Part shown: piece by piece, positions 9,539-23,176 of the stretch
Layout: each line of letters begins with the position of its first letter
Position numbering within the stretch: the stretch's first letter is position 1
NCBI GenBank assembly: GCA_947632005.1
Contig: CANRNU010000015.1
Span: 1 to 52,744, forward strand
Reading direction: 5' to 3'
Source: an uncultured Oscillospiraceae bacterium
GTDB lineage: Bacteria > Bacillota > Clostridia > Oscillospirales > Oscillospiraceae
Length of the DNA stretch: 52,744 nt
The notes under the pieces: generated by a model
Told to the model about the DNA's origin: nothing
The model's input: the letters and a program-made list of their open reading frames with translations, nothing else
Databases searched by the model: none
Program-made: the position numbers and the translations under genes

Positions 9539-10675
9539 ATGGACCTTACGATCAACAGCGCCGCGGCGCACGAACAGCTCTCCGGCATCCGGGAGTTCAC
9601 CTATCTTGTCCGGGCTACCCCCGGGGCCATCGGCTTCACGCTGGGAGAGCCGGACCTGAATACCCCGGACCCCATCAAGGACGCCGCCAAGGCCGCCCTG
9701 GACGCCAACGACACCCACTATCCTCCCGGCAACGGCTATCCTGCCACCCTGGAGGCCATCTCCGCCTACGAGGCCCGACAGCACGGCCTGCACTATTCCC
9801 CTGAGGAGATCATCCTGACCGACGGGGCCACGGAGGGCCTTTTCGTGTCCTTCGCCACCATCCTGGAGCCCGGCGACGAGGTCATCATCCCCACGCCGGC
9901 CTTCGGCCTGTACGAGTCCATCGTCCGGCTGTTCCGGGGCGTGCCCGTGGCCCTGCCCACGGAGAAGCACCGCTTCCAGATCGACCCCAACGAGCTGCGG
10001 GCGGCCATCACCTCCCGGACCAAGGCCGTCATCCTCACGTCCCCCAACAACCCCACTGGGTGCATCTATACGAAAAAGACCATGGACGCGGTCCATGAGA
10101 TCCTGAAGGACAGGCCCGTCTTCGTTTTGTGCGACGACGTGTACCGGGAGCTGGTCTACTCCGGGGAGTATCACAGCTTTTCCGAGTACCAGGACATGCG
10201 GGAGCGCATCATCGTCGTGCAGAGCTTCTCCAAGCCCTATGCCATGACCGGCTGGCGGCTGGGGTATATCCTGGCGGACGCGCCCCTACGGGAGCGGCTG
10301 CAGGTGTTCCATCAGTACTGCGTCACCTCCGCGCCCTCCTTCCTCCAGGCGGGATGCGTGAAGGCCCTGGAGACGGACGTGTCGCCGGTCCGGGCGCTGT
10401 TCAAGCGCCGCCGGGACTATGTCTACGGCCGGCTCACGGAGATGGGCTGGACCGTCCAGGAGCCGGAAGGGGCCTTCTATATGTTCATCGACATCAGCAG
10501 GTATGGCATGGGCTCCCGGGCCTTCTGCGAGAAGCTGCTGGCCGAGGCCGGTGTGGGGATGATCCCCGGCATCTACTTCGGCACGGAGGGGTACATGCGC
10601 ATGAGTTACTGCTATTCCGACGCCGAACTCCAGGAAGGCCTGGAGAGGATGGAGAAATTCATCAAAACACTGTGA
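9539..10675 (+). CDS. Class I/II PLP-dependent aminotransferase
   Basis: A 378-residue fold-type I aminotransferase of the aspartate/aromatic group. Visible features are FTLGEPD (about residues 33-39), SPNNPTG (168-174), the DD-Y pair at 199-202, the PLP lysine K232 in SFSKPYAMTGWRLGY, and a C-terminal arginine region (GYMRMSYCYS). It transfers an amino group to a 2-oxo acid; the exact substrate cannot be read from sequence. GGAGGAG starts 2 bases after the preceding stop codon, so it is translated from the same mRNA as the binding lipoprotein, suggesting that the imported solute is an amino acid or peptide. A terminator follows directly. Confidence 0.93.
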   Translation: MDLTINSAAAHEQLSGIREFTYLVRATPGAIGFTLGEPDLNTPDPIKDAAKAALDANDTHYPPGNGYPATLEAISAYEARQHGLHYSPEEIILTDGATEGLFVSFATILEPGDEVIIPTPAFGLYESIVRLFRGVPVALPTEKHRFQIDPNELRAAITSRTKAVILTSPNNPTGCIYTKKTMDAVHEILKDRPVFVLCDDVYRELVYSGEYHSFSEYQDMRERIIVVQSFSKPYAMTGWRLGYILADAPLRERLQVFHQYCVTSAPSFLQAGCVKALETDVSPVRALFKRRRDYVYGRLTEMGWTVQEPEGAFYMFIDISRYGMGSRAFCEKLLAEAGVGMIPGIYFGTEGYMRMSYCYSDAELQEGLERMEKFIKTL

Positions 10676-10687
10676 ATCATGCAATGA

Positions 10688-10713
10688 GGACGCGGCTTTC
10701 AGCCGCGTCCTTT
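10688..10713 (+). terminator. Intrinsic terminator after the aminotransferase
   Basis: A 10-bp perfect GC-rich stem GGACGCGGCT/AGCCGCGTCC (10688-10697, 10701-10710) with a 3-base loop, followed by TTT. Confidence 0.75.
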
Positions 10714-10767
10714 CATATATATGGAAAGGCCCCGGTCGGCGGGGCCCACCGTCAATGTCTGTTTTCG

Positions 10768-10801
10768 GAAATGGCGCGGCCTGTGCGGACCGCGCCATTT
10801 C
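10768..10801. terminator. Hairpin between convergent genes, possible bidirectional terminator
   Basis: A 12-bp perfect inverted repeat GAAATGGCGCGG/CCGCGCCATTTC (10768-10779, 10790-10801) with a 10-base loop, between the convergent aminotransferase and MATE genes. The U tract is within the stem on both strands, so terminator function is only probable. Confidence 0.5.
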
Positions 10802-10839
10802 TATTTGGCCGCCTGCACCCGTGTCCCCGGGGGTAGGGG

Positions 10840-12177
10840 TCATTCCGGGTGTGAACGGACAGCCTTTCTGCTCCTGGGATGAAGGAAGAAGAACAGGGCG
10901 AAAACGGCGCAGACCGCCTCGGTCAGAGCCGGAGCCAGCCAGACGCCGCGCTCGCCCATGACCTTCGCACAGACCAGACCGAACAAAACCATGCCGCTGA
11001 TGCTGCGGAACTGGGAGAGGAATTGGGCTGTGCGCGGCCGCTCTGTGGCGGAGAAATAGCCGATGGAGGACACATTGAAGCCGATGAACAGGAAAAACGG
11101 GGAGAACCGCTTCAAAGCGGAGACGCCGGAGGCGAAAAGCTGCCCGTTTTCAGGAGAGATGAACTGCCGGACCAGCACCGGTCCGCAGAAACAGCAAACG
11201 ACGAAAAGCAGTGCGCCGAGACCGATGGCAAATATCCTGGCGTAACGGAAATAGTCCGACGCGGCCCTGTGGTTTTCTCCCCCGTGCATATAGCTGACCA
11301 GCGGCTGCATCCCCTGCGTGATGCCCAGGGACATCTGAACAGACAGCAGATTCATGTAGTTGATGACGGAGAAGATCACGATCCCCGGCTCCCCCATGAG
11401 GCTGAGAATGATGTGGTTGAACACGAACACGAATATGCCGGAGGACCCCTCGCTGATGGCGTCAGAGATGCCCAGCTTTATGGTGCTGATCTGCAGGCTC
11501 CTATCGAATCGAAAAGGCCGCAGGCGCAGGGTCGCGCTCTTGGTGAAGAAGTGGGAGAGATACAACACGGCGATGGTGCCCTGTCCGCCGGCAGTCGCGA
11601 GGGCGACGCCGGTCATGCCCATGCGGAGCTTCCGAACGAGCAGGAACAGCAGCAGGACGTTTGTCAGCGCCCCGGAGAGGCAGCCGTATATGCAGAGCTC
11701 AGGATGACCGTCGGCCTTCACCATGACAGCGAGCATATAGCAGGCGGCAAAGGTGAGGGAACATAGGGTGATCGTCCGGAGGTAGGACACCACCAGCGCG
11801 AGGTTTTCCGGTGTGGCCCCCAAAATGAGCGCAAGCTTATGGGTCAGGAAAAAGGATACAACGCCAATGAGCACGGTGCTGGCAAACAGCACGGCGACGG
11901 TCTGGCTGAAGTAGCGGTCAGCTTTTTCCTGCTCGCCCCGGCCCCGGCAGATCGAGATCATCGTCGACCCGCCTACACCGAAAAGAAGGGCGTAGGAGTA
12001 GATGATGGAGACATACGGAGAGGCAAGATTCACGGCAGCCATGGCGGATTCCCCAAGTATGCGGCTCGTGAACATACCGTTGAAAGCAGTCAGCAGAGAG
12101 TAAACTGAGAGGTCCAGCAGAGAGGGGAACATGTAGCAGACATATGTTTTGATGGATGCCTTTGACTCGTTTTTCAT
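10840..12177 (-). CDS. MATE family efflux protein (second copy)
   Basis: A 445-residue, about 12-helix MATE transporter, clearly diverged from the one at 3715-5124. It starts with an N-terminal cytosolic stub (MKNESKASIKTYVC), then FPSLLDLSVYSLLTAFNGMFTSRILG, and ends in a basic tail (HPRSRKAVRSHPE). Substrate unknown. It follows the epimerase gene at 12287-13126 on the same strand, but a terminator-like hairpin separates the two, so the link to the Amadori-product locus is positional only. The ribosome site is weak (GGGAG about 15 bases before ATG), and no clear promoter was found in the 109 bases upstream. Confidence 0.88.
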   Translation of the reverse strand: MKNESKASIKTYVCYMFPSLLDLSVYSLLTAFNGMFTSRILGESAMAAVNLASPYVSIIYSYALLFGVGGSTMISICRGRGEQEKADRYFSQTVAVLFASTVLIGVVSFFLTHKLALILGATPENLALVVSYLRTITLCSLTFAACYMLAVMVKADGHPELCIYGCLSGALTNVLLLFLLVRKLRMGMTGVALATAGGQGTIAVLYLSHFFTKSATLRLRPFRFDRSLQISTIKLGISDAISEGSSGIFVFVFNHIILSLMGEPGIVIFSVINYMNLLSVQMSLGITQGMQPLVSYMHGGENHRAASDYFRYARIFAIGLGALLFVVCCFCGPVLVRQFISPENGQLFASGVSALKRFSPFFLFIGFNVSSIGYFSATERPRTAQFLSQFRSISGMVLFGLVCAKVMGERGVWLAPALTEAVCAVFALFFFLHPRSRKAVRSHPE

Positions 12178-12210
12178 GGTATTCGATCGTTTCTCCCAAC
12201 GGTGTAACGC

Positions 12211-12258
12211 AAAATCAATGGCCGGACCCGACGCCTGAGTTTGTGCGCGGGTCCGGCC
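12211..12258 (-). terminator. Probable terminator of the minus-strand epimerase gene
   Basis: An 11-bp perfect stem GGCCGGACCCG/CGGGTCCGGCC (12220-12230, 12248-12258) with a 17-base loop. On the minus strand it is followed by ATTGATTTTG. Confidence 0.6.
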
Positions 12259-12286
12259 TACGGCAGTCCGGCTTGAAGGGCCGGGC

Positions 12287-13126
12287 TTATTCTTGTGCTG
12301 CCAGAGCCGCCCGCAGGGCCTGGACGTTGTCCCGGGCCGCTTCGTCGGGGATCAGCTGGTGCTTGTAGGAGCATATCTCCAGGGTGAAATGGTGCTGATA
12401 GTGATGCCGGCGCATGCAGTTCAGATACTCACCCAGGGGCAGGTCGCCCTGGCCCCAGGGGACCTGACCGGACTCATTCAGATGGATGTGGGCGATATCA
12501 TCCCCCAGCAGCTCGAAATAATGGTCGAAGGACTCCCCCTTGACGGCCATATGGCAGGTGTCCACAACGATCTTCAAAGCGGGAGAGGCCACGTCATCCA
12601 GGAGCGTTCTGGCGGCTGCGGCGCTTCCCACCAGGTTGGACTCGATGATCTGCAGCGGCTCCAGGACCATGGTGATGCCCAGCTTCTGGGCGTGCAACGC
12701 CAACTCGCCCAGGGAGTCACACATGCAGGCCCAGTTTTTCTCGGTGGGCCCTTCGTAGTAGCCCCGGCCAGGGACGATCTGGTACATGGGCGCCTCCAGC
12801 GCGGCTGTTGCCTCCAGGGTGGTATGCATATAGGCCATGGTACGGGCATGGACGTCCGGGTCCGGATCGGCGATGTTGATGGGATAGCGTATCTGCTCCG
12901 GGGTGCAGCAGATGATCTTCGTGCCGCTGCGGCGGCTCATATCCAGGATCTTTTTGGCCTGCTCCCGGTAGGTGTCTTCCTCGATGTAAAAATGGGGATA
13001 TCCGGACCAGAGGTCCACGTTCTCTACGCCCAGTTCCTGCATGGTGTTGAAGAAGTGCTCCAGCGGGAAAAAGCAGTAGTGGATGTTCATCACAGCGAGC
13101 TGGGAAGGTTGGATCTTGTACTCCAT
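12287..13126 (-). CDS. FrlC-like sugar phosphate isomerase/epimerase (copy A)
   Basis: A 279-residue TIM-barrel protein of the xylose-isomerase-like/AP-endonuclease-2 family. The four metal ligands expected for this group are visible: E156 (VLEPLQ), D189 (VVDTCHM), H215 (HIHLNE) and E250 (TLEIC). Known relatives include FrlC, which interconverts fructoselysine and its C3 epimer psicoselysine, and tagatose/psicose 3-epimerases. This copy is monocistronic, on the opposite strand from the three copies at 18.6-21.1 kb, and has its own strong promoter with an ATTACAT motif at the start site, which ties it to the same regulon. Its substrate is unknown; the sequence differs enough from the other three to suggest a different epimer or amino partner. 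Confidence 0.85.
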   Translation of the reverse strand: MEYKIQPSQLAVMNIHYCFFPLEHFFNTMQELGVENVDLWSGYPHFYIEEDTYREQAKKILDMSRRSGTKIICCTPEQIRYPINIADPDPDVHARTMAYMHTTLEATAALEAPMYQIVPGRGYYEGPTEKNWACMCDSLGELALHAQKLGITMVLEPLQIIESNLVGSAAAARTLLDDVASPALKIVVDTCHMAVKGESFDHYFELLGDDIAHIHLNESGQVPWGQGDLPLGEYLNCMRRHHYQHHFTLEICSYKHQLIPDEAARDNVQALRAALAAQE

Positions 13127-13204
13127 GGCTTGTCCTCCTGTTGTTGATGTTTCCGCAGCCTGGGGCGTGCGGAAGGTGATGATGTGGTATATGACAAAAA
13201 TATA

Positions 13205-13250
13205 ATGTATATTACATTTTCATAATAACAGTGGCGGAGATGATTGTCAA
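13205..13250 (-). promoter_or_regulatory. Promoter and probable operator of epimerase A
   Basis: On the minus strand TTGACA (13245-13250), 17 bases, TATTAT (13222-13227). The imperfect palindrome ATGTA-tat-TACAT (13205-13217) sits at the expected transcription start and contains ATTACAT, which recurs in the regulator-operon intergenic region. A repressor bound here would block initiation. Confidence 0.65.
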
Positions 13251-13292
13251 GAGATGGTTCGATGTTTCAGCGCGTTTTTTTCCAAAGGACAT

Positions 13293-13319
13293 AAAAAAGC
13301 CCCGCCTGGAAGGCGGGGC
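13293..13319 (-). terminator. Intrinsic terminator of the GntR regulator gene
   Basis: An 8-bp perfect GC stem GCCCCGCC/GGCGGGGC (13299-13306, 13312-13319) with a 5-base loop. On the minus strand it runs into six T (13293-13298). Confidence 0.9.
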
Positions 13320-13333
13320 GCACAATGGAGCCG

Positions 13334-14038
13334 TCAAAGAAAATACGGAAAGCGGTTGGTGGTGATGACGTTCTTCGTAAGCGACAGTACGTCGTGGTCT
13401 CTGGAGTACAGGACCTCCCGGATCAGCAGGAGAGGGGACTGAGCGGGAACGCCCAGATACTTCGCCTCGGACTCGTCGGCATAGCAGATCTCGATCGTAC
13501 GCTGGGAGTGGTGAACGATGACGCCGTTTTGCCGCAGGATATCCGTGTAAGAGCCCTCTGGCTCCTTCTCGATGTAGGCGGCGAAGGCAGACGGCATGAC
13601 CACCTTTTCTACCAGTACGGGAAAGCCGTCCATGGTCCGCACACGCGTCATCAAGGCGGCACATTTCATGTCCGGCTGCCGGAAGGCAGTCTGTTCCTCC
13701 TCGGTCGCGGGCCGGATGGTTATATCGTGGAAGATGGCGCCCGGCTCGTGGCCGTTGATGCGGCATGTCTGGGAAAAGCACATATACGGAGGCGTGCCGG
13801 CCTCCAGCTTTGCGGTGTAGACCGTGCCGAATCCCTGCCGCTTATGAACGATGCCCGTATCCTCCATGATAGAGATGGCCCGCCGAACAGTGATCCGGCT
13901 CACGCCGTACTGCTGGCAAAGCTCCTTCTCTGTGGGGATGCGGCCATAATCTGAGTATTCGCCGTTGCTGATGCGGGTCTTCAGATCGGCAACGATCTGC
14001 TGATAAAGCGGAAAGCCCTGATTCTTGTCCAACGCCAT
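13334..14038 (-). CDS. GntR family transcriptional regulator with UTRA domain (FrlR-like)
   Basis: A 234-residue regulator of the HutC subfamily. The N-terminal winged helix-turn-helix (about residues 9-75) is seen as FPLYQQIVADLK and GRIPTEKELCQQYGVSRITVRRAI; the C-terminal UTRA effector-binding domain (about 95-230) follows. The E. coli frl operon is controlled by a regulator of this kind, FrlR. ATG 14038 is chosen because the gene's own promoter (14090-14118) overlaps the upstream in-frame ATG at 14101, which therefore cannot be in the transcript. It is transcribed divergently from the nine-gene operon and probably represses that operon, the epimerase A gene and perhaps itself, with an Amadori compound or its 6-phosphate as inducer. 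The effector is inference. Confidence 0.9.
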   Translation of the reverse strand: MALDKNQGFPLYQQIVADLKTRISNGEYSDYGRIPTEKELCQQYGVSRITVRRAISIMEDTGIVHKRQGFGTVYTAKLEAGTPPYMCFSQTCRINGHEPGAIFHDITIRPATEEEQTAFRQPDMKCAALMTRVRTMDGFPVLVEKVVMPSAFAAYIEKEPEGSYTDILRQNGVIVHHSQRTIEICYADESEAKYLGVPAQSPLLLIREVLYSRDHDVLSLTKNVITTNRFPYFL

Positions 14039-14089
14039 ATGTCTCTTGTCCTTCGTTCTTAATAATAAAAGGTCATGCTTTCGAGGCTG

Positions 14090-14118
14090 ATTATAATACA
14101 TTCTTCTGAATAATGCAA
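14090..14118 (-). promoter_or_regulatory. Promoter of the GntR regulator
   Basis: On the minus strand TTGCAT (14113-14118), 17 bases, TATAAT (14090-14095). Transcription should start near 14083, 45 bases before ATG 14038. Confidence 0.7.
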
Positions 14119-14130
14119 GAGGTTATAGGA

Positions 14131-14192
14131 ATTACATAAAAAGAAAACAAAACAAATCAATTACATGACATGATTATAATTCAATATGTAAT
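14131..14192. promoter_or_regulatory. Cluster of ATTACAT motifs in the divergent control region
   Basis: ATTACAT at 14131-14137 and 14160-14166, and its reverse complement ATGTAAT at 14186-14192; the same word occurs at the epimerase A start site (13211-13217). A direct repeat AGATTATA follows at 14203-14210 and 14218-14225. The AT-rich stretch contrasts with its surroundings. I infer binding sites for the adjacent GntR regulator or another factor. Confidence 0.45.
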
Positions 14193-14233
14193 AGAATGCA
14201 ACAGATTATAGTCAAAAAGATTATATTTTCGTA

Positions 14234-14261
14234 TTGACATATATCATAATTATGATATAAT
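14234..14261 (+). promoter_or_regulatory. Promoter with embedded palindromic operator for the Amadori-product operon
   Basis: TTGACA (14234-14239), 16 bases, TATAAT (14256-14261). A perfect 20-bp palindrome, TATATCATAA followed by its inverse TTATGATATA (14240-14259), fills the whole spacer and overlaps the -10 box. This is the classic position for a repressor site. The leader is about 53 bases, with GGAAGGAG before ATG 14321. Confidence 0.75.
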
Positions 14262-14320
14262 GCATAACATGAACCCCGGCTAGAACAAGCCAGGACCCTT
14301 AGGGAAGGAGTCAAATACGG

Positions 14321-15322
14321 ATGGAGAAAGAAGTACGGCGCTCTTCACTGGACGATATCCGCAAGGCGATGGCCCATGTCATAGAGATGGCCCAGCCGGT
14401 CAGGCAGGTATATGCGGTAGCATGCGGCGGCAGCAACGGTGCGTTCTACCCCATGGAGTATTTTCTCCGGGAGGAAGCGCGGACGTTTGGCTGCACAAGC
14501 ATATCCGCCAACGAATTTGCGCACGCCGTGCCGCGCGCGATGGATGAGAACAGCATCGTGTTCGTCATGTCCCTTGGGGGAAGCACCCCGGAGACATGTG
14601 CAGCGGCGGAGCGGGCAAAACGCGGAGGCGCTGCGGTCGTAGCGCTGGTGGCGGATCCGGAGGCAGAGCTGGCCAAAACGGCAGACAGCACCATCGTCTT
14701 TCAGATCGAGACGGATTACTGCGCCAGCCACAGCAATGTGTTTACCACCCTTTGGTGCGGCATTGAACTCTTGGAGCAGATCGAGGGCTACCAGTACTAC
14801 AAAGACGCCTTGGATGCGGCCGGAAAGATAGACGGCATCTGCCGCCGGGCCATTGAGCAGGCAGCGGCGCGGGCCGACCGCTGGGGCAAAAAGAATGCGC
14901 AGGAGAAGATCGTCTACACCGTTGCCAGCGGCCCTTCTGCCAAGGTAGCCTACACCATGAGCATCTGCATGCTGATGGAGATGGAATGGGTGGATTCGGC
15001 ATCCATCCACAGCGGCGAGTTTTTCCACGGCCCCTTTGAGGTCACGGACAAGGACAAGTCCTTTATGGTCTTTGAGAGCGTCGGGAGGACCAGACCGCTG
15101 GACGAGCGGGTCCTGCGCTTCCTGGAACGATATGGGGACAGGGCCAATGTCGAGGTCCTGGACGCCAAGGAACTGGGCATCGATACCCTGCAGGATAGTG
15201 TGGCGGAGTATTTCTGCCCGGTCCTGCACTGGCTGGTGGCGCTGGCCTACAGTGAGAGGCTCGCGTTTTACAAGGAACATCCGCTGTTCATGCGCCGCTA
15301 TATGGGAAAAGTGAACTATTGA
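14321..15322 (+). CDS. SIS-domain deglycase, FrlB-like (copy 1)
   Basis: A 333-residue protein with two SIS (sugar isomerase) folds. Relatives FrlB, FraB and GfrE/GfrF cleave 6-phosphorylated fructose- or glucose-amino acid conjugates into hexose 6-phosphate and the free amino acid. Visible are the phosphosugar loops ACGGSNGAFYP (about residues 34-44) and SLGGSTPET (84-92), the SIHSGEFFHGPFE motif (228-240), and a C-terminus FMRRYMGKVNY like the RRYYGGLVEY end of FrlB. The catalytic pair reported for FraB/FrlB, a Glu and a His 16 residues apart, is present as E220 and H236. It is first in the operon, ahead of the importer. It differs clearly from the second SIS gene, so the two probably act on different conjugates. 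Confidence 0.85.
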   Translation: MEKEVRRSSLDDIRKAMAHVIEMAQPVRQVYAVACGGSNGAFYPMEYFLREEARTFGCTSISANEFAHAVPRAMDENSIVFVMSLGGSTPETCAAAERAKRGGAAVVALVADPEAELAKTADSTIVFQIETDYCASHSNVFTTLWCGIELLEQIEGYQYYKDALDAAGKIDGICRRAIEQAAARADRWGKKNAQEKIVYTVASGPSAKVAYTMSICMLMEMEWVDSASIHSGEFFHGPFEVTDKDKSFMVFESVGRTRPLDERVLRFLERYGDRANVEVLDAKELGIDTLQDSVAEYFCPVLHWLVALAYSERLAFYKEHPLFMRRYMGKVNY

Positions 15323-15376
15323 TGTATATCCGGGGGGGAGGCCCCCAAAAAATATAATAAAAACGGAGGAATGACA

Positions 15377-16708
15377 ATGACCCTTACGACAAAACGCGTA
15401 CTGGCACTTCTTATGGCTCTCTGCCTTGGCCTGTCCCTTGTGGGCTGCGGCGGAGGAAGCGACAAGGCGGAGGAGCAGGCGCCTGCCGAGGAAGCCGCCC
15501 CCGCTGAAGAGGCTGCCGGGGAGGAGACCGAAGAGGCCGAGGCTCCCGCAGAGGAAGAAACGGCCGATGCCGGGGAAGCCGCCGGCGACGGGACTACCCT
15601 GGAGATCTGGACCTATTACGATGGCATCTATTTTGATTCGGTCCGGGAGATGCTGGACAGGTTCGAGGAGGACACCGGTATCAAGTCCAACCTGACGGCG
15701 GTATCTTTTGCCGACTTCAAATCCAAGCTGACCATGGCGGCTACGGCTGACTCCCTGCCGGACGTGGTGTTCATTGACAACTGCGACACCGTGGCCTATG
15801 CCGAGATGGGTATTTTCCACGACATGACCGATGACCTGGAGGGTTCGGAGGAGCTGGACAACTACTTCGATCCCATCGTGGCGAGCGGGACCTATGAAGG
15901 ACGCATCTACGCCATTCCCGCAATCACCAACAACTACGGTTTCTACTACAATAAAGAGTATTTTGAAGAGGCCGGCATTGAGGATGTCCCGACCAACTGG
16001 GAGGAACTGATGGATGCGGCCAAGAAGCTGACGAATGACCGGCATTATGGCCTGGGACTGGTCATGGTCGGCAACGAAGAGGGCACGGCCAACTACCTGC
16101 CTTGGCAGCTCATGGCGGGCGGCAACTACTATGATCTGAACAGCGAGGCCGGCATCCGGGCTCTGACGTTCCTGCAGGATCTGGCCAATGAGGGCGTCAT
16201 GCCCAAGGACGTTGTCTCCTGGAGCCAGAACGATGTTGGCGCCCAGTTCGCAGCGGGCAACGTGGCGATCATGATGGACGGGTGCTGGTTCGTCAACTCC
16301 TATGACAAAGAGCTCACCTTCGATTACGGCACCTTTGCCCTGCAGGACAAGAACTATGGCTCCCTCTTCGGCGGCGAGAATATGGCCTTCATCGAGGGGG
16401 ACAACGTGGATGCGGAAGTCCAGCTGGCTAAGTGGTACCTCCAGCCGGAGCACTGCATTGACACCTGCTATGAACAGAGCCAGTTCGCGGCTGTCCCGGA
16501 GACGACAGAGGACGCCCGTTATCAGACCGAGCACTGGAAGACGTTTGCCGATCTGATCCAGTATACCACCGCGCGGCCCTCCGATCCGGACTGGCCCAGC
16601 ATCTCTCTTGGCTATCAGTACGCCATCCAGGCTGTCATTACCGGCGACGCTACTCCTGAGGAGGCAGCGGTACAGGGACAGTCTATGATCGACGAGGCCA
16701 GAAGCTAG
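15377..16708 (+). CDS. Carbohydrate ABC transporter substrate-binding lipoprotein
   Basis: A 443-residue family 1 (MalE-like) binding protein: lipobox LVGC with lipid Cys at about residue 24, then a Glu/Ala/Pro-rich linker (about 30-70), then a binding domain starting TLEIWTYYDG. The ATG at 15377 is chosen because GGAGGA lies 7 bases before it; the in-frame ATG at 15371 directly abuts that site. It is followed by two MalF/MalG-type permeases and sits between SIS copy 1 and the epimerases, so its ligand is probably an Amadori or Heyns product. Peptide- and amino-sugar-type ligands cannot be separated by sequence alone. Confidence 0.92.
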   Translation: MTLTTKRVLALLMALCLGLSLVGCGGGSDKAEEQAPAEEAAPAEEAAGEETEEAEAPAEEETADAGEAAGDGTTLEIWTYYDGIYFDSVREMLDRFEEDTGIKSNLTAVSFADFKSKLTMAATADSLPDVVFIDNCDTVAYAEMGIFHDMTDDLEGSEELDNYFDPIVASGTYEGRIYAIPAITNNYGFYYNKEYFEEAGIEDVPTNWEELMDAAKKLTNDRHYGLGLVMVGNEEGTANYLPWQLMAGGNYYDLNSEAGIRALTFLQDLANEGVMPKDVVSWSQNDVGAQFAAGNVAIMMDGCWFVNSYDKELTFDYGTFALQDKNYGSLFGGENMAFIEGDNVDAEVQLAKWYLQPEHCIDTCYEQSQFAAVPETTEDARYQTEHWKTFADLIQYTTARPSDPDWPSISLGYQYAIQAVITGDATPEEAAVQGQSMIDEARS

Positions 16709-16732
16709 TACACGCCAATCACGACCACAAAA

Positions 16733-16763
16733 ACCGCGCCGGAGGCCCAGCGCCTCCGGCGCG
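16733..16763 (+). other. Intercistronic hairpin after the binding-protein gene
   Basis: A 13-bp perfect GC-rich stem CCGCGCCGGAGGC/GCCTCCGGCGCGG (16733-16745, 16751-16763) with a 5-base loop and no T run. Such hairpins between binding-protein and permease genes usually protect the upstream mRNA, giving more binding protein than permease. Confidence 0.75.
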
Positions 16764-16789
16764 GCAACAGCAAAGAAGGGGGCCTGACC

Positions 16790-17683
16790 TTGGGAAAACT
16801 CTCACCGGACAGGAAGAGCAAGCTTTTCGGCTGCCTCATGGTGGCGCCGGCTCTGCTGTTTCTCATCTGTTTCATCGTCTATCCACTGATCTATAACGTC
16901 TATATCTCTCTGCACGATGTGAAAGCGGGCAACCTGCTCACCGGGGAAAGGCCGTTCGTGGGCCTGGAAAACTACGTCTCTGTTTTCAAGGGGAGATATC
17001 TGCTCAACTCTATCAAGGTCACGCTCCTGTTTACTTTGGGGTGCATCCTGGTACAGTTTCCGCTTGGTTTTTTCCTGGCCATCGTCTATACGAAAAAAGC
17101 CAAACCTCTCAAAAAGATCAGCGGGCTTCTGCTCATCGCGTACATCATGCCCGTCACCGTCACCGGTATCGTCTTCAAATTCTTCTTCCTGAGTACGGGC
17201 GTCCTGAACTCCATGCTGAGTTCCCTGGGGCTCATCAAGGAAAACATAGAATGGCTGTCTTCCACAAATCTGGCACTTTTCAGCGTTACGCTGACCAATA
17301 TATGGACCGGCATCGCATTCAACATGATCCTGTTGCAGAGCGGCCTGATCAACATCCCGCAGGAGCTGTATGAGAGCAGCATGATCGACGGCGCCAACAG
17401 CATACAGCAGTTTTTCAAGATCACACTGCCGCTGATGAAGAACTCCATCTATATGGTGCTGATCCTGGGATTTATCTACACCTTCCGGAATTTTGAGCTG
17501 ATCTATGTGATGACCTCCGGCGGGCCCAACAACGCCACAGAACTGCTGAGTATATACTCCTACAGGAGATCCTTCATGGAATTCAACTTCGGCGAGGGCG
17601 CGGCCATTGCCATTGTCATGCTCATGATCCTGCTCGTGTTCGGGGTCATGTACATGCGGATCCTCAGAAAGGAGGATAACTGA
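16790..17683 (+). CDS. Sugar ABC transporter permease (MalF/UgpA type)
   Basis: A 297-residue inner-membrane permease with six hydrophobic helices. The cytosolic EAA loop that docks the ATPase is seen as ELYESSMIDGANSIQQFFKITLP (about residues 197-219). The start is a TTG at 16790 after an A/G-rich stretch AAGAAGGGGG; no better in-frame start precedes the conserved N-terminal helix. The TGA stop overlaps the next gene's ATG by one base (TGATG), so the two permeases are translationally coupled. Its partner is the binding lipoprotein just upstream. Confidence 0.92.
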   Translation: MGKLSPDRKSKLFGCLMVAPALLFLICFIVYPLIYNVYISLHDVKAGNLLTGERPFVGLENYVSVFKGRYLLNSIKVTLLFTLGCILVQFPLGFFLAIVYTKKAKPLKKISGLLLIAYIMPVTVTGIVFKFFFLSTGVLNSMLSSLGLIKENIEWLSSTNLALFSVTLTNIWTGIAFNMILLQSGLINIPQELYESSMIDGANSIQQFFKITLPLMKNSIYMVLILGFIYTFRNFELIYVMTSGGPNNATELLSIYSYRRSFMEFNFGEGAAIAIVMLMILLVFGVMYMRILRKEDN

Positions 17684-18528
17684 TGTCGGCGAAAAGGAAA
17701 AAACTCTTCTTTCAGACCGTCTGGATGGCTGTTGGTATCCTCATGTTCATCGCTCTGATGATGCCCCTTTACTGGATGCTGTGCAGCTCCTTTATGAGCA
17801 CCACGGAGATCTTTGACCGCCCGCCCCATCTGATCCCTCCTCATCCGACGCTGAAAGCATACAAGGATATCCTCAATATGCCCACGGTGGACGTGATGCA
17901 CGCCTTCAAGAACAGTTTCATCATTGCCTTTGGGTGCATGATTATCTCAGTAACACTGTCCGTGCCCGCCGCTTACGCCCTGGCTAAGCGCAAGATGAAG
18001 GGGAGCGGCATCATCATTCTGGTGTTTTTGATCTCCCAAATGCTGCCGGAAGTATTCACGTTGACCCCATATCTTGCCATCTTCAGGAAGCTGGGGCTCT
18101 ATAACACCTATTTCGCGCCCATGATCGCCTGCTGTACGCTGGCAGTTCCCTTCTGCGTCATCATGCTGCGGCCCTACTTCCTCACCGTGCCGCAGGAGCT
18201 GGAGGATGCGGCCCGCATCGATGGATGCAGTCACTGGAAGGCCTTTGTGAAGGTGATGATGCCCATTGCCTCGCCCGGCATCGCGGTGGCCTTCGTGTTT
18301 TCCTTCCTCTTTGCATACGGGGACATGATGTACAGCCTCAACCTGACCAACGACAGCACGATGTGGCCGGTCACTACCGGCATCTACAGTGCCGTGGGCC
18401 GTTATGGCATGGCTTGGGACAGAGGCATGGCCTTTGCCTGCCTGATCGTTTTGCCGGTGTTCGTCATCTTCCTCCTCCTGCAGAGGTATATCGTGGAGGG
18501 ACTGACCAGCGGGTCCGTCAAGGGCTGA
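17683..18528 (+). CDS. Sugar ABC transporter permease (MalG/UgpE type)
   Basis: A 281-residue permease with six helices and the EAA loop ELEDAARIDGCSHWKAFVKVMMP (about residues 173-195). It forms the heterodimeric channel with the preceding permease. The start is ATG 17683 in TGATG overlap, with GGAGG at 17671-17675. No ATP-binding subunit follows, here or anywhere in the operon; in many Firmicutes a shared MsmK/UgpC-type ATPase encoded elsewhere serves several such importers. Confidence 0.92.
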   Translation: MSAKRKKLFFQTVWMAVGILMFIALMMPLYWMLCSSFMSTTEIFDRPPHLIPPHPTLKAYKDILNMPTVDVMHAFKNSFIIAFGCMIISVTLSVPAAYALAKRKMKGSGIIILVFLISQMLPEVFTLTPYLAIFRKLGLYNTYFAPMIACCTLAVPFCVIMLRPYFLTVPQELEDAARIDGCSHWKAFVKVMMPIASPGIAVAFVFSFLFAYGDMMYSLNLTNDSTMWPVTTGIYSAVGRYGMAWDRGMAFACLIVLPVFVIFLLLQRYIVEGLTSGSVKG

Positions 18529-18556
18529 GCACACCGGGTGAAAGGAGGAACATGAT

Positions 18557-19384
18557 ATGCTGAAATTGGAGCAGATCGCCGGTATGGGCCTCATCTATAA
18601 GATGTACAGTCTGGACTACATGCTGGACGATCTGGCGTCTATGGGATTTCGTGCGTTTGAGCTCTGGGGCGCTTATCCGCATCAATTCGTGGATGGAGAG
18701 ACATCCTTTCCGCCGTGCAGCGTTGTACGGCAGAAGATCGCCGAGCGCGGGCTGCGGCTCGTATGCTATACCCCGGAGCAGCTGCTGTACTACTACAACA
18801 TCGCCTCGCTGGACAAGACCATCCGGGACAAGAGCCTGGCATATTACAAGCGCGCCATTGACGCCGCCTGTGAATTGGGCGCGGACCGGATGCTGATGAC
18901 CAGCGGGTGGGGCCTTTACGACGAGCCCATCCGGGACAACTGGAAATACTCCTGTGAATCCCTTCACACGCTGGCCGAGCATGCCCAGGAGCAGGGGATA
19001 TTCCTTGTGCTGGAAAATCTGAACAGCTTTGAGTCAAATCTCGTCAACTCTCTGCCTACTATGAAAAAGATGCTGGAGGAAGTGCGGCACCCGGCCCTGA
19101 AGGCCATGGTGGACACTGTGCCCATGCACGGGGCAGGGGAGACCATGAAGGACTATCTGGAGGCGTTTGGGGATGATCTGCGCCATGTACACCTGATCGA
19201 CGGCAGCCCTATCGGACACCTCGCCTGGGGAAAGGGCTATCTGCCGCTGGATGAGGATGTACAGGCCCTGGTGGACCATGGCTATCAGGATGCCATCACC
19301 TTTGAGATAGCAGGCGGAGATCAGCGCAACCCGGGTCTGGAGATGGCCCAAAGCTTCAGCCGTATCAAGAAATATCTTGGCTGA
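18557..19384 (+). CDS. FrlC-like sugar isomerase/epimerase (copy B)
   Basis: A 275-residue TIM-barrel epimerase. The metal ligands E153 (VLENLN), D186 (MVDTVPM), H212 (HVHLID) and E250 (TFEIAG) are in place. The YTPEQ motif (residues 71-75) is the counterpart of YTPE in FrlC. ATG 18557 has AAAGGAGGAA immediately upstream; the ATG at 18552 is out of frame. The N-terminus MLKLEQIAG is nearly the same as MLKKEQIAG of copy C, so B and C probably arose by duplication and then diverged. It most likely epimerises an imported fructosamine or its isomer; the substrate is inferred from the operon. Confidence 0.85.
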   Translation: MLKLEQIAGMGLIYKMYSLDYMLDDLASMGFRAFELWGAYPHQFVDGETSFPPCSVVRQKIAERGLRLVCYTPEQLLYYYNIASLDKTIRDKSLAYYKRAIDAACELGADRMLMTSGWGLYDEPIRDNWKYSCESLHTLAEHAQEQGIFLVLENLNSFESNLVNSLPTMKKMLEEVRHPALKAMVDTVPMHGAGETMKDYLEAFGDDLRHVHLIDGSPIGHLAWGKGYLPLDEDVQALVDHGYQDAITFEIAGGDQRNPGLEMAQSFSRIKKYLG

Positions 19385-19405
19385 CCGTCAGAGGAAGGGG
19401 TAGTC

Positions 19406-20251
19406 ATGCTTAAGAAAGAACAGATCGCCGGCAACAATTTTGCCTATCTTCGCTGTACGTTTGAGGAGTTCATCGCCTCGATGGAACGCCTGGACATCCA
19501 CGCCATTGAGCTGTACGCCGCCTCCCCGCACCTGTTCGTCCCGGAGAGCACCAATGCGCAGGCGCGGAATATAGGCCGGCAGCTGCGTGAGGCGGAGATC
19601 AAACCCATCTGCTTCACCGCGGAGCAGTGCATGTATCCTGTCAGCCTGTCTACGGAGGACGAGCTGGTGCGCAGACGGTCCATGAGGTATTATATGCGCT
19701 CGCTGGAGCTGGCGCAGGAAGCGGGGTGCCCCAGGATGCAGATGATATCCGGGCAGTGCTATCTGCACAGCAGGCCGGAGGAGAACTGGGCGCGGGCTGT
19801 GGACGGCATCGGCGCTGTGACGGAGCGGGCCCGGGAATTGGGGGTCCAGATCGTCCTGGAGGCAGATCCCGCCTGTTCTGTCGCCACGCTGCAGGATACC
19901 CGGCGGATGATCGATACCATCGGCAGCCCATATTTGACCGGCATGATCGACACCAACGAGATGTACAACAACGGGGAGGACATCCGGGAGAGCATACGGC
20001 TTCTGGGGCCGGACCTGCAGCATATGCATTTCATTGACCTGAAGCCCGGCGTGCCTTGTCTGACTCCCGGTGACGGGATCCTTCCCATGGAGGACTATCT
20101 GGAGGCTCTGGCGGAAGGAGGCTATGAGGCGTATCTGTCTCCGGAGCTTTGGGGCTGGAGCTATTTGAACGATCCTCATGGGGCCCTGGAACGGGGCGTC
20201 CGGTACATTGAAAACTGGATAGAACGAAACGGAGGAACGGCCGATGCTTAA
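19406..20251 (+). CDS. FrlC-like sugar isomerase/epimerase (copy C)
   Basis: A 281-residue TIM-barrel epimerase with ligands E152 (VLEADP), D182 (MIDTNEM), H208 (HMHFID) and E247 (SPELWG). It is the most divergent of the three tandem copies: FTAEQ replaces YTPE(Q/N), and LYAASPH replaces (I/L)WG(A)xPH at the substrate-side loop (about residues 36-42), which hints at another substrate. The last 8 bases overlap the start of copy D, so the two are translationally coupled. AGGAAGGGG precedes ATG. Confidence 0.83.
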   Translation: MLKKEQIAGNNFAYLRCTFEEFIASMERLDIHAIELYAASPHLFVPESTNAQARNIGRQLREAEIKPICFTAEQCMYPVSLSTEDELVRRRSMRYYMRSLELAQEAGCPRMQMISGQCYLHSRPEENWARAVDGIGAVTERARELGVQIVLEADPACSVATLQDTRRMIDTIGSPYLTGMIDTNEMYNNGEDIRESIRLLGPDLQHMHFIDLKPGVPCLTPGDGILPMEDYLEALAEGGYEAYLSPELWGWSYLNDPHGALERGVRYIENWIERNGGTADA

Positions 20252-21089
20252 ACTCTCTTTCCTCTCCATGGTGTATCAGCGGTACGGTCTGGAAAAGGTC
20301 TTCCGGGAAGCGGATCGCATGGGCTTCAACGGCGTGGAGATCTGGGGCGCCAGGCCCCATGCATACGCCTTTGACTGTGACGACAAGCTGATCGAGCACA
20401 TCAGGACCTTATCCCGGGACTGGAACATCAAGATCGCCGCCTATACGCCGGAGAACTGTGTGTATCCCTACAGTCTCTGCTCGCAGTCCGCAAAAGAGCG
20501 CCGGGAAACGGTCGAGTATTATAAGCTCGCGCTGGACGTTGCGGCGCAGATCGGGGCGCCGCTGATACAGATCACCCCCGGCGACCCGGGCTATGAGGGC
20601 TCCGAAGACGCTGACTGGGGCCATCTGTGCGAGACGCTGGCAGAGGTTTGCCAGCACGGGGAAAAGGTGGGCGTCGATGTGGTAATGGAGACGCTGACCC
20701 CCTACGAGAGCCTTATCCTCACCAGCGCGGGGGATCTGGCCAGGCTGCTCGCAGATGTGCCGTCCCCCAGACTTTACGGCATGATGGATATGGTCAATCC
20801 CTTCGTGATGCGCGAATCGTTTTCCAATTATTTCCGCCTCTTGGGGGATAAGATGGGCCACATCCATGTGGCCGACAGCGATGGGAAGACCAGCGCGCAT
20901 GTGCCGCTGGGGACCGGATGCATCGAGATGGAGCCGGTCGTTTCGCTTATCGACCGGATGGGGTATAGCCGCTATTGCAGCATTGAGATCTGCGGCTACA
21001 TCGAGGACCCGGAGACATACATGGAAAGATCCGTCAGCCATCTGCGCGCCTGCATGGCCAAGGCAGGCGTGGAGCAGGCGGCGCGGTGA
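20244..21089 (+). CDS. frlC: Fructoselysine 3-epimerase-like protein (copy D, closest to FrlC)
   Basis: A 281-residue protein and the best FrlC match of the four. Shared landmarks with E. coli FrlC as I remember it are the (G)VEIWGARPHAYA loop (about residues 31-42), AAYTPEN (65-71), LTPYES (151-156), VPSPRLYGMMD (172-182) and HIHVADSDG (206-214). Metal ligands are E149, D182, H208 and E248. FrlC interconverts fructoselysine and psicoselysine so that both reach the kinase. The start overlaps copy C by 8 bases, with GGAGGAACGG upstream. It precedes SIS copy 2 and the kinase, the same B/C/D set as the E. coli frl operon. Confidence 0.8.
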   Translation: MLKLSFLSMVYQRYGLEKVFREADRMGFNGVEIWGARPHAYAFDCDDKLIEHIRTLSRDWNIKIAAYTPENCVYPYSLCSQSAKERRETVEYYKLALDVAAQIGAPLIQITPGDPGYEGSEDADWGHLCETLAEVCQHGEKVGVDVVMETLTPYESLILTSAGDLARLLADVPSPRLYGMMDMVNPFVMRESFSNYFRLLGDKMGHIHVADSDGKTSAHVPLGTGCIEMEPVVSLIDRMGYSRYCSIEICGYIEDPETYMERSVSHLRACMAKAGVEQAAR

Positions 21090-21126
21090 ATTTGACCCAC
21101 ACATATTTCACGAACGGAGGAGAAAA

Positions 21127-22119
21127 ATGTACAATTTTCAAGAAGCAGAAGTCCTGAAGAAGGAAAAGGCCGGCGCCGGACTGCGCAAAGTCATTGAGAA
21201 GACCGTGGATTCGATTTTCGAGCAGGGATTCAAGAATGTTTTCTACATTGGCATCGGCGGTACCATCTCCCACGCCTTTGACGTGGAGAGCTTCGTGCAG
21301 ACCAACTCCACGCTGCCCTTGTATCTGGCCAATGCCGGGGAATATATCAAAATGGGCAACAAGAATCTGACGAAGGACTCTGTTGTCTATGTGGAATCCC
21401 GCTCTGGGGATACCCCTGAGATGGTGGAGGCGGTCGACAAGTGCAAAGGCGCCGGCGCCCGGGTCTATGGTTTTATCGAAAAAGAGGACAGCCCTCTGGC
21501 AAAGAGCGTGGATGTGCTGGTGTCCACCGCCACGGTCGGCTACTATCAGCCATATTACTTCTTTGGATACATGATGAAAAAATGGGGGGACTTCAGCGAC
21601 TATGACGCCCTGGCCGACTGCCTGGAGACCCTCCCCGAGAAGATCGTAAAGGCTTACCCCGTGATTGACGGTTACTGCCGCAAGTTTGCGGAGACCTATG
21701 GCGAGGCGGATATGAACTATCTGGTGGGCGCCGGGAATTCCTGGGGCGCTGCTTACTGCCTGGCCATGTGCTACATGGAGGAGATGATGTGGATGCGGAC
21801 CAAGTCCATCCACGCTGCCGAGTTCTTCCATGGCACCCTGGAGGTCATTGAAAAGGGCGTTTCGGTGCTTCTGTTCAAGAGCGAGGACGATTCCCGGGCG
21901 GAGGTACAGCGCGCGGAGGATTTCATCCGCCGTGTCACCAACGACGTTACGGTCTATGACAGCAAGGATGTGGAGCTGGAGGGCGTGCCCCAGGAGCTGC
22001 GCCGCTATCTGAGCCCCTTCATTTTCCACGCCTATCAGGAGCGGACGTTCATGAACCTGGAGGATATCCGCAAGCATCCCGGCGATATCCGCCGTTATTA
22101 CCGCAGACTGAAATACTAA
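21127..22119 (+). CDS. frlB: Fructoselysine-6-phosphate deglycase-like SIS protein (copy 2)
   Basis: A 330-residue double-SIS protein with the phosphosugar loops IGIGGTISHAF (about residues 41-51) and ESRSGDTPEMVEA (90-102), the SIHAAEFFHGTLE motif (227-239) and a C-terminal HPGDIRRYYRRLKY resembling the end of FrlB. The catalytic Glu and His, 16 residues apart in FraB/FrlB, are E219 and H235. Expected reaction: fructoselysine 6-phosphate plus water gives glucose 6-phosphate and lysine. ATG 21127 follows ACGGAGGAGAAAA; longer in-frame extensions run through the end of copy D and are not real. Being next to the FrlC- and FrlD-like genes, this copy is the better candidate for true FrlB. Confidence 0.82.
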   Translation: MYNFQEAEVLKKEKAGAGLRKVIEKTVDSIFEQGFKNVFYIGIGGTISHAFDVESFVQTNSTLPLYLANAGEYIKMGNKNLTKDSVVYVESRSGDTPEMVEAVDKCKGAGARVYGFIEKEDSPLAKSVDVLVSTATVGYYQPYYFFGYMMKKWGDFSDYDALADCLETLPEKIVKAYPVIDGYCRKFAETYGEADMNYLVGAGNSWGAAYCLAMCYMEEMMWMRTKSIHAAEFFHGTLEVIEKGVSVLLFKSEDDSRAEVQRAEDFIRRVTNDVTVYDSKDVELEGVPQELRRYLSPFIFHAYQERTFMNLEDIRKHPGDIRRYYRRLKY

Positions 22120-22130
22120 GCCCGTCACAT

Positions 22131-22160
22131 CGGCGGCCAAAAGGTTCCTTTTGGCCGCCG
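22131..22160 (+). other. Hairpin abutting the ribosome site of the kinase gene
   Basis: A 14-bp perfect inverted repeat CGGCGGCCAAAAGG/CCTTTTGGCCGCCG with only two bases between the arms. It ends directly against AAGGAGGAG (22161-22169). There is no T run, so it is a stability or translation-control element rather than a classical terminator. Confidence 0.7.
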
Positions 22161-22174
22161 AAGGAGGAGAAGAC

Positions 22175-23056
22175 ATGGCAAAGATCATTGGTATCGGAGA
22201 CAATGTGGTCGACATCAACCTGACCAACAGCCGGGTATACCCCGGGGGCCAGGCGCTGAACGTGGCGGCCAATGCCTCCATGCTGGGAGCAGAGTGCGCC
22301 TACATAGGCAGCATAGGAAATGGCGAGGCAGGAGAGATCGTCTGCGATGCGCTGGACCGGCTGGGTGTAGACCGCTCCCGCTGCCGCAGGTATCCTGTGC
22401 CGAATTTCCCGTCTTACTATCGCATCATAGACGATGACCGGGTATTCGTGGCACCTCCCGTGCCTCTGCATCCTATGACCGGCGTGCTGTTCGAGATGCT
22501 GGCCTATGAGGGCTTTACCCAGGAGGATTACGATTATATCCGCACCTTCGATGTGGCACATCTGTCCAATGACAGCCGGATCGAGGCATACCTCCCGGAA
22601 TTCGTCCGCCAGGGGATCGATATCTCCTTCGACTTTTCCGTCTACCACGACAGACCGGGCTATATGGAAAAGGTGTGCCCGTATGTGAAGTTCGCCTTTT
22701 ACTCCGTGAGCCACCTGGACCGTACCGGTGCCGAAGAGCTCTTGCGGCGTTCCTGTGCCCTGGGAACGGCCATCAGCGTGGGCACTATGGGCGCCGAGGG
22801 CGCCCTGTGCTACGACGGCCGGTCGTTTTATGAACAGCCGGCGTGCCGGCTGGAAAAGGTAGTGGATACCATGGGCGCGGGGGATGCCTTTACGGCGGCG
22901 GCGCTGGTGAGATACTACGATCTGATGCGGCAGGAGCCCCCGTCCCGGGAGGAGCCGATCCGGGAGATGCTTGCCTTCGCTTCCCGCTACGCAGCGGACG
23001 TATGCATACGGGAAGGGGCCATCGGACTGGGCCGGCCCTATAACGGATCCATTTGA
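22175..23056 (+). CDS. frlD: PfkB-family sugar kinase, fructoselysine 6-kinase-like
   Basis: A 293-residue ribokinase-fold enzyme. The N-terminus IGIGDNVVDIN (about residues 5-15) and PGGQALNVA (24-32) match the FrlD start (GDNCVD, GGNAVNVA), and the anion-hole/catalytic motif is DTMGAGDAF (about 230-238), with the catalytic Asp in GAGD. FrlD phosphorylates fructoselysine at O6. At 293 residues it is longer than E. coli FrlD (about 260), with an extra acidic segment after DLMRQEPP. ATG 22175 is supported by AAGGAGGAG; the TTG at 22151 lies inside the hairpin. Last gene of the operon, followed by a terminator. Confidence 0.85.
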   Translation: MAKIIGIGDNVVDINLTNSRVYPGGQALNVAANASMLGAECAYIGSIGNGEAGEIVCDALDRLGVDRSRCRRYPVPNFPSYYRIIDDDRVFVAPPVPLHPMTGVLFEMLAYEGFTQEDYDYIRTFDVAHLSNDSRIEAYLPEFVRQGIDISFDFSVYHDRPGYMEKVCPYVKFAFYSVSHLDRTGAEELLRRSCALGTAISVGTMGAEGALCYDGRSFYEQPACRLEKVVDTMGAGDAFTAAALVRYYDLMRQEPPSREEPIREMLAFASRYAADVCIREGAIGLGRPYNGSI

Positions 23057-23090
23057 CGGACTGTCCCCGGGACGGTTGCGGAGAAAAACC

Positions 23091-23134
23091 AAGGACCGCA
23101 CTCTTTTCACCAGAAAAGAGTGCGGTCCTTTCTT
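23091..23134 (+). terminator. Terminator of the nine-gene operon
   Basis: An 18-bp perfect stem (23091-23108 with 23113-23130; core GGACCGCACTC/GAGTGCGGTCC), a 4-base loop, then TCTT. The A/T-rich inner part makes it also readable from the other strand, which would stop ireB transcription. Confidence 0.8.
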
Positions 23135-23176
23135 GGGGAAAGTTTTCCACACCGAGCGGCGCAAGGCCGCTCTCTG

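Follow-up and report, generated by a model that had tools for sequence, protein, structure and literature searches.

The eleven genes and their candidate control sites

The window analysed here, a contig of 52,744 nucleotides (CANRNU010000015.1) from a 2.3-Mb, 77.6%-complete draft genome of an uncultured Oscillospiraceae bacterium, carries eleven intact open reading frames (ORFs) between positions 12287 and 23056. Judged by protein families, clades and key residues, a fructosamine-type pathway is the best reading of this gene set, and the locus is likely to be an accessory island for the use of fructosamine-type (Amadori) compounds. Every gene counted in a preliminary description of the sequence was recovered there as an intact ORF with a Pfam or NCBIfam assignment: two deglycases (SIS proteins), four epimerases, one kinase, a GntR/UTRA regulator, and an ATP-binding cassette (ABC) importer. 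In a Pfam run of ten of the proteins, the matches above gathering scores were four AP_endonuc_2, two SIS, and one each of PfkB, GntR plus UTRA, substrate-binding protein (SBP) and BPD permease. The eleventh protein, permease B, stood outside that run and owes its identity to NCBIfam only (MalG-like, 122 bits, below the cut-off).

Nine genes point rightward and, with gaps of −8 to +81 bp by their coordinates, bear out the single operon first described. In order, these are deglycase 1 (14321–15322), the SBP of a CUT1-type ABC importer with a lipoprotein-like start (15371–16708), permease A (UgpA/MalF-like, TTG start; 16790–17683), permease B (MalG/UgpE-like; 17683–18528), epimerase 2 (18557–19384), epimerase 3 (19406–20251), epimerase 4 (20244–21089), deglycase 2 (probable start 21127; 21127–22119) and a PfkB sugar kinase (probable start 22175; 22175–23056). 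On the opposite, minus strand lie gntR, encoding the regulator (13334–14038; the ORF opens at 14101, with a likely ATG start at 14038), and epimerase 1 (12287–13126), a xylose-isomerase-like TIM barrel of the FrlC superfamily that, like epimerase 2, is assigned from NCBIfam, Pfam and its tree. A GGAGG-like stretch stands just 5′ of the start in all of the genes except gntR (10 of 11); that of the SBP gene touches its first ATG. No ABC ATPase gene was found among the operon genes, and a UgpC-type ATPase is encoded elsewhere in the genome (461.8 bits against a cut-off of 432). An SBP, closest to sugar SBPs, two permeases and a distant ATPase of the UgpC/MsmX type are what a CUT1 importer with a shared ATPase consists of, although the pairing itself is a prediction.

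Epimerase 1 is the satellite gene that had been placed outside the main operon: it sits downstream of gntR, beyond a terminator-like hairpin (13299–13319, minus strand), and has a promoter-like site of its own, a match by pattern only (TTGACA-17-TATTAT, 11/12; 13222–13250, minus strand). The main operon is preceded by a promoter-like site on the plus strand (TTGACA-16-TATAAT, 12/12, with TG before the −10; 14234–14261), whose spacer and −10 are covered by a perfect 20-bp palindrome, TATATCATAATTATGATATA (14240–14259), a candidate operator. Promoter-like sites are no commoner here than in shuffled sequence (7 against a mean of 7.1), so weight is placed only on the 12/12 match and the palindrome; terminator-like sites number 13 against a shuffle mean of 8.0 (standard deviation 3.1). 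A search of the window for the operator core, allowing up to two mismatches, gives a single occurrence, with no second copy at, for instance, epimerase 1. Repression of the main operon and of gntR itself is the probable role of the GntR/UTRA protein, which would bind this palindrome and be released from it by a pathway intermediate. Between the SBP and permease A genes lies a strong GC-rich hairpin with a 14-bp stem (16733–16765), possibly giving unequal expression of the SBP and permease genes.

Relationships of the deglycases, epimerases and kinase

None of the window enzymes reaches the NCBIfam equivalog cut-off of E. coli-type FrlB, FrlC or FrlD, and for this reason clades were compared instead. 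FrlB is the nearest named family of both SIS proteins, but at only 90 and 87 bits against a cut-off of 430. This cut-off is narrow, because a GfrF-like protein of E. faecium also reaches only 79 of 430. Both window proteins match the solved entry 3eua (“putative fructose-aminoacid-6-phosphate deglycase”), which we take to be B. subtilis FrlB, with 214 and 108 bits, whereas for GlmS or NagB-II entries the scores do not exceed about 29 and 39 bits. Among solved entries, deglycase 1 scores highest with 3fkj (263 bits) and deglycase 2 with 2a3n/8glr (215 bits); none of these titles contains the word deglycase, and 2a3n and 3fkj are presumably Salmonella sequences. The equivalents of Glu 214 and His 230 of FraB, to which we ascribe a catalytic role, are kept in 10 of 10 and 9 of 10 rows, respectively, both window proteins included, as predicted for SIS deglycases of the frl/fra/gfr kind. 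A general acid conserved between FraB and FrlB is described in PMC9609667.

The SIS tree holds 44 rows, leaving aside four duplicates and a 607-aa ORF (L055) taken for GlmS; all trees exclude B. subtilis FrlB and the solved sequences 3eua, 2a3n and 3fkj. Deglycase 1, 44% identical to FraB, groups with proteins of three gene clusters from metagenome-assembled genomes (MAGs), L017–L019 (93/95; 95/98 for a six-row set), a clade in which no protein compared here has been characterised. An approximately unbiased (AU) test rejects its grouping with FraB and L038 (p 0.003). Deglycase 2 is placed on a long branch as sister to the GfrF-like clade (96/91 for an eight-row set) and is 40–41% identical to the GfrF-like protein of an E. 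faecium plasmid. The GfrE-like deglycase of the same plasmid, like the solved entry 2aml, belongs to a GlmS-like SIS lineage, with which neither window protein aligns beyond a short stretch. 3eua by score and FraB by tree fall on deglycase 1's side of the family, and enzymes of the FraB side have alpha-glycated substrates according to PMC12632257 and PMC9609667. With deglycase 2 standing beside GfrF, an epsilon-fructoselysine enzyme, it is plausible from these positions that one deglycase serves alpha-linked and the other epsilon-linked amines, though no tested enzyme is a close relative of either.

All four epimerases score higher with FrlC (124, 137, 100 and 257 bits for epimerases 1–4; cut-off 305) than with D-psicose 3-epimerase, and they share Glu149, Asp182, His208 and Glu248 with E. 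coli FrlC, presumably the E/D/H/E metal site of epimerases. Their mutual identity of 26–35% shows that they are no recent duplicates and rules out recent tandem duplication; when epimerase 3 was used to search the genome it comes from (E up to 1e-28), the four places hit all lay within the locus. In a tree of 27 rows, with two D-psicose 3-epimerases as the outgroup, epimerase 4 is a basal member of the FrlC clade (99/97) and the sole one of the four placed there. Epimerase 3 groups with the L017 and L018 epimerases (100/98), is rejected from both the FrlC clade (p 3e-57) and the outgroup (p 0.001), and has no characterised member in its clade among the sequences compared. Epimerases 1 and 2 fit neither side firmly, and the solved relatives of epimerase 1 are mostly D-tagatose and D-psicose 3-epimerases. 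As a label for the whole set, “FrlC-like” is not supported: it holds for epimerase 4 and fails for epimerase 3.

The kinase has FrlD as its best NCBIfam family (142 bits, cut-off 247). Its earlier description as FrlD-like is not supported by the tree: with 25 rows, two duplicates left out, it falls in a clade with FraD and similar kinases (95/93). As a PfkB kinase of the FraD/FrlD group, it would supply the C6 phosphorylation for which frl, fra and gfr systems have a kinase or a phosphorylating importer.

The insert and its relatives in other genomes

Relative to other genomes of the genus, the locus forms part of a 12.5-kb insert (about 10676–23168), with edges where DNA similarity to relatives ends near 10675 and returns near 23170. 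Its fructosamine part has a GC content of 56.7%, against 63.2% and 63.9% in the flanks. Seventeen of the 29 congeners with a pheT match (own genome aside) were fetched for comparison of the site. In six (L092–L096, L098) the site is empty, with an aminotransferase gene followed by a 395–525-bp spacer bearing an 80-aa gene (presumably IreB-like) and then pheT; three (L087, L091, L099) carry other sequence there, and in the other eight stretches either no aminotransferase was found next to pheT or the contig stopped short. Mis-binning of the contig is ruled out by flanking genes that are syntenic with congeners, pheT being up to 93% identical. Among 35 genomes of the genus, deglycase 1 was found in one, its own (limit 1e-30). 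Always counting its own genome, wider searches found it in 8 of 400 family genomes and 6 of 394 order genomes at a limit of 1e-40, and in 5 of 398 genomes from the phylum at 1e-50, these being overlapping groups searched at different E-value limits. Epimerase 3 occurs in 3 of 394 of the order and deglycase 2 in 10 of 150 of the family (limit 1e-30), again counting their own. On these comparisons the locus was most likely acquired as an island; its nature as an accessory insert, with deglycase 1 found in 1 of 35 genomes of the genus, speaks against the organism specialised in glycated amino acids that had been proposed. The same insert includes a MATE efflux gene (10840–12177) with FepA as its best NCBIfam match, below the cut-off. 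The L017 regulator is also adjoined by a MATE gene, of another subgroup, and one probably stands beside the regulator in L019 too.

Twenty-seven neighbourhoods, picked by similarity and not as a random sample, were compared with the locus. They draw on all 13 non-own deglycase-1 places of the family and order searches, all four of the phylum search, and seven newly fetched of the nine non-own deglycase-2 places of the family search, plus G122 (G045 is only a 2.6-kb piece). A search by exact short peptides, which finds only sequences sharing such peptides with the query, gave 18 stretches and 3 relatives. At least two epimerases are present in five of the 27 (four each in L017 and L018, three in L038, two each in L019 and L053), and four of the 27 lack an epimerase match. 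Three of those five also have at least two SIS genes: six in L017, six in L018 and three in L019, the counts for L019 coming from an incomplete cluster that runs to the contig end. Two different SIS genes without several epimerases occur in L042, L054 and L109.

Related clusters are found in two goat-jejunum MAGs (L017, 3984–19860; L018, 1940–17837) and in a Faecalibacterium MAG (L019, 3939–10987). Like the window, they have GntR, a kinase, and several deglycases and epimerases; deglycase 1's clade is common to all, and epimerase 3's clade to L017 and L018. Unlike the window, they have another gene order, and L017 has a CUT2-type importer with its own ATPase (by Pfam), with similar-looking ORFs in L018. 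The three clusters contain a tandem run of closely related deglycases, which suggests recent duplication. Directly after the L018 cluster are HAD hydrolase-like and aspartoacylase/desuccinylase-like genes (17926–19542), a neighbourhood in which N-acyl removal from modified amino acids is possible. In L040 (8945–18716) a hydantoinase B/oxoprolinase gene adjoins a FraB-side SIS gene and a FraD-like kinase, in a stretch that also holds a TRAP (DctP) binding protein and an epimerase-3-like gene; glycated pyroglutamate or hydantoin is perhaps used there. In L038 (9402–18014), from another genus of the family, FraB/FraD-like genes are followed by three epimerases, an amidohydrolase and a second kinase, this one FrlD-like. 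This fra-like set with additional epimerases and a second kinase indicates that epimerase gain probably happened more than once.

Interpretation and alternatives

Most parts of the locus have counterparts in known systems. E. coli frlABCDR has the same types of epimerase, kinase, deglycase and GntR regulator, its proteins being 22–37% identical to those of the window (at best 37% for the FrlC type and 30% for the kinase); it differs in having one epimerase, one deglycase, and the permease FrlA instead of an ABC importer. The kinase of the B. subtilis frl operon is, we assume, of the PfkB type like that of the window. This operon, frlBONMD-frlP, also resembles the window in having an SIS deglycase, a type I ABC importer whose ATPases are exchangeable, and alpha-glycated substrates, but has one deglycase and, as described in a paper that does not use the word, no epimerase (PMC12632257). 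The Intestinimonas AF211 cluster, compared by its description, likewise has an ABC transporter, kinase and deglycase in a gut clostridium, and its published model names a single kinase and a single deglycase (PMC4697335). The ABC importer, first presented as a novelty, is therefore known from both FrlONM and Intestinimonas. gfrABCDEF, of Salmonella and of the E. faecium plasmid operon (L021), shares the presence of two SIS deglycases, the GfrF-like one nearest to deglycase 2; it differs in using a phosphotransferase system (PTS) instead of ABC importer and kinase, in the other lineage of its second deglycase, and, in L021, in having no epimerase annotated. The GfrE and GfrF labels for L021 follow gene order and Wiame 2005, in which GfrE is reportedly nearer to GlmS and GfrF nearer to FrlB. 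Their substrates follow the text of PMC12675984, which assigns glucoselysine-6-P to gfrE and fructoselysine-6-P to gfrF, although its figure legend reverses them. With two deglycases in gfr operons, the earlier generalisation of one enzyme per step in known loci has to be given up. The fructoselysine operon of Faecalibacterium prausnitzii is described in PMC12136445 as gfr type without gfrE. The fra locus (fraB, fraD and GntR; L035) has likenesses in deglycase 1 and the FraD-grouping kinase, but has no epimerase and includes a C4-dicarboxylate-type transporter and an asparaginase; the window's deglycase 1 is rejected from the FraB clade, and nothing like the fraE asparaginase of fra-type systems is among its eleven genes. 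ABC import, the kinase, the deglycase, an FrlC epimerase and even two deglycases each have separate precedents. What is new, as far as the open-paper literature searched shows, is the combination of four unlike epimerases, two unlike deglycases and one kinase. The number and diversity of epimerases beside one kinase were rightly called unusual at the outset, and larger relatives of the cluster exist.

If substrates, reaction direction and regulation are as the gene set suggests, the SBP and two permeases would import glycated amines, powered by the shared UgpC-type ATPase encoded elsewhere. The TIM-barrel epimerases would turn C3 (or other) stereoisomers of the 1-amino-ketose into a form acceptable to the kinase, which would phosphorylate C6. 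The two SIS deglycases, probably serving two amine classes, would then convert the 6-phosphates into hexose 6-phosphate and free amino acid. Several observations weigh against this scheme. Every frl-family NCBIfam score is significant yet under its equivalog cut-off, and the window's own sub-clades have no member of known substrate. Epimerases 1 and 2 branch deeply, and the tests reject for them neither a place in the FrlC clade (p 0.185 and 0.129) nor one with the outgroup of D-psicose 3-epimerases (p 0.183 and 0.090). Deglycase 2 is not rejected from a position among the deglycase-2-like proteins of L017–L019 instead of GfrF (AU p 0.105). The kinase just escapes rejection from the FrlD clade (AU p 0.054), and its solved relatives are other sugar kinases, the best a 2-keto-3-deoxygluconate kinase (45 bits).

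An ordinary, merely divergent fructoselysine operon with duplicated epimerases would account for FrlB, FrlC and FrlD all being the best families, for epimerase 4 within the FrlC clade, and for deglycase 2 beside GfrF-like proteins. We consider it unlikely, given the distance between the epimerases and the exclusion of epimerase 3 from the FrlC clade. Moreover, classical frl loci exist in the same bacterial family (L050, L051, L055), with two GntR genes, two permease-like genes and two adjoining unidentified ORFs. Their GfrF-like deglycases are 53–60% identical to the E. faecium protein, and their FrlC and FrlD 45–53% and 44–46% identical to those of E. coli. Since these are so much nearer to the E. 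coli proteins, the substrate of the window system may not be fructoselysine; and since the window equivalents reach only 40–41%, 37% and 30%, the locus looks like a system different from classical frl, not a copy with extras. Degradation of rare ketoses or amino sugars, in which tagatose/psicose-type 3-epimerases would work with SIS sugar-phosphate isomerases and no glycated amines be involved, is a rather improbable second alternative. It is favoured by the solved relatives of epimerase 1, by the sugar SBPs nearest to the SBP, and by the failure to exclude epimerases 1 and 2 from the D-psicose 3-epimerase side; but the SIS proteins match 3eua far better than GlmS or NagB-II and keep the FraB residues, and FrlC outscores D-psicose 3-epimerase in all four epimerases. 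A gfr-like system for fructoselysine and glucoselysine (Amadori and Heyns compounds) with a kinase replacing the PTS is very improbable and the Heyns substrates first proposed are dropped with it, for despite the two deglycases shared with gfr operons (PMC12675984) and an unrejected union of deglycase 1 with the GfrE-like lineage (AU p 0.25, that lineage attaching at the root branch), no GfrE-type deglycase was found among the window proteins, and beyond them the 77.6%-complete genome yielded, as further SIS proteins, GlmS and one resembling RpiR-type regulators.

Within the favoured reading, that of an island for fructosamine-type compounds, a wider proposal is more doubtful: that the locus and L017–L019 are undescribed combinatorial glycation-product loci of clostridial gut-type bacteria, in which several epimerases of new specificity funnel Amadori compounds of other sugars into one kinase and at least two amine-selective deglycases. 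The new specificities would lie in the epimerase 3 clade, perhaps with C4 as well as C3 epimerases, and candidate substrates would be tagatose-, psicose- or disaccharide-derived Amadori compounds (from galactose or lactose). Amadori products, sugar–amino-acid compounds that arise when food is heated, are eaten at an estimated 500–1,200 mg a day (PMC12698463). Bacterial routes in the literature examined act chiefly on fructoselysine, psicoselysine, glucoselysine, fructose-asparagine and alpha-glycated amino acids. With its four unlike epimerases and two lineages of deglycase, the locus points to the use of stereoisomeric or other-sugar glycation products. To our knowledge no bacterial enzyme for such products has been described, and the epimerase 3 and deglycase 1 clades, having no characterised member in this comparison, are concrete targets for substrate screens.

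Outside the insert, positions 5291–7795 of the window encode a large protein with a Listeria–Bacteroides-type repeat match. Its counterparts in five congeners are 26–37% identical while the neighbouring genes are better conserved, and it is perhaps a fast-evolving surface protein.

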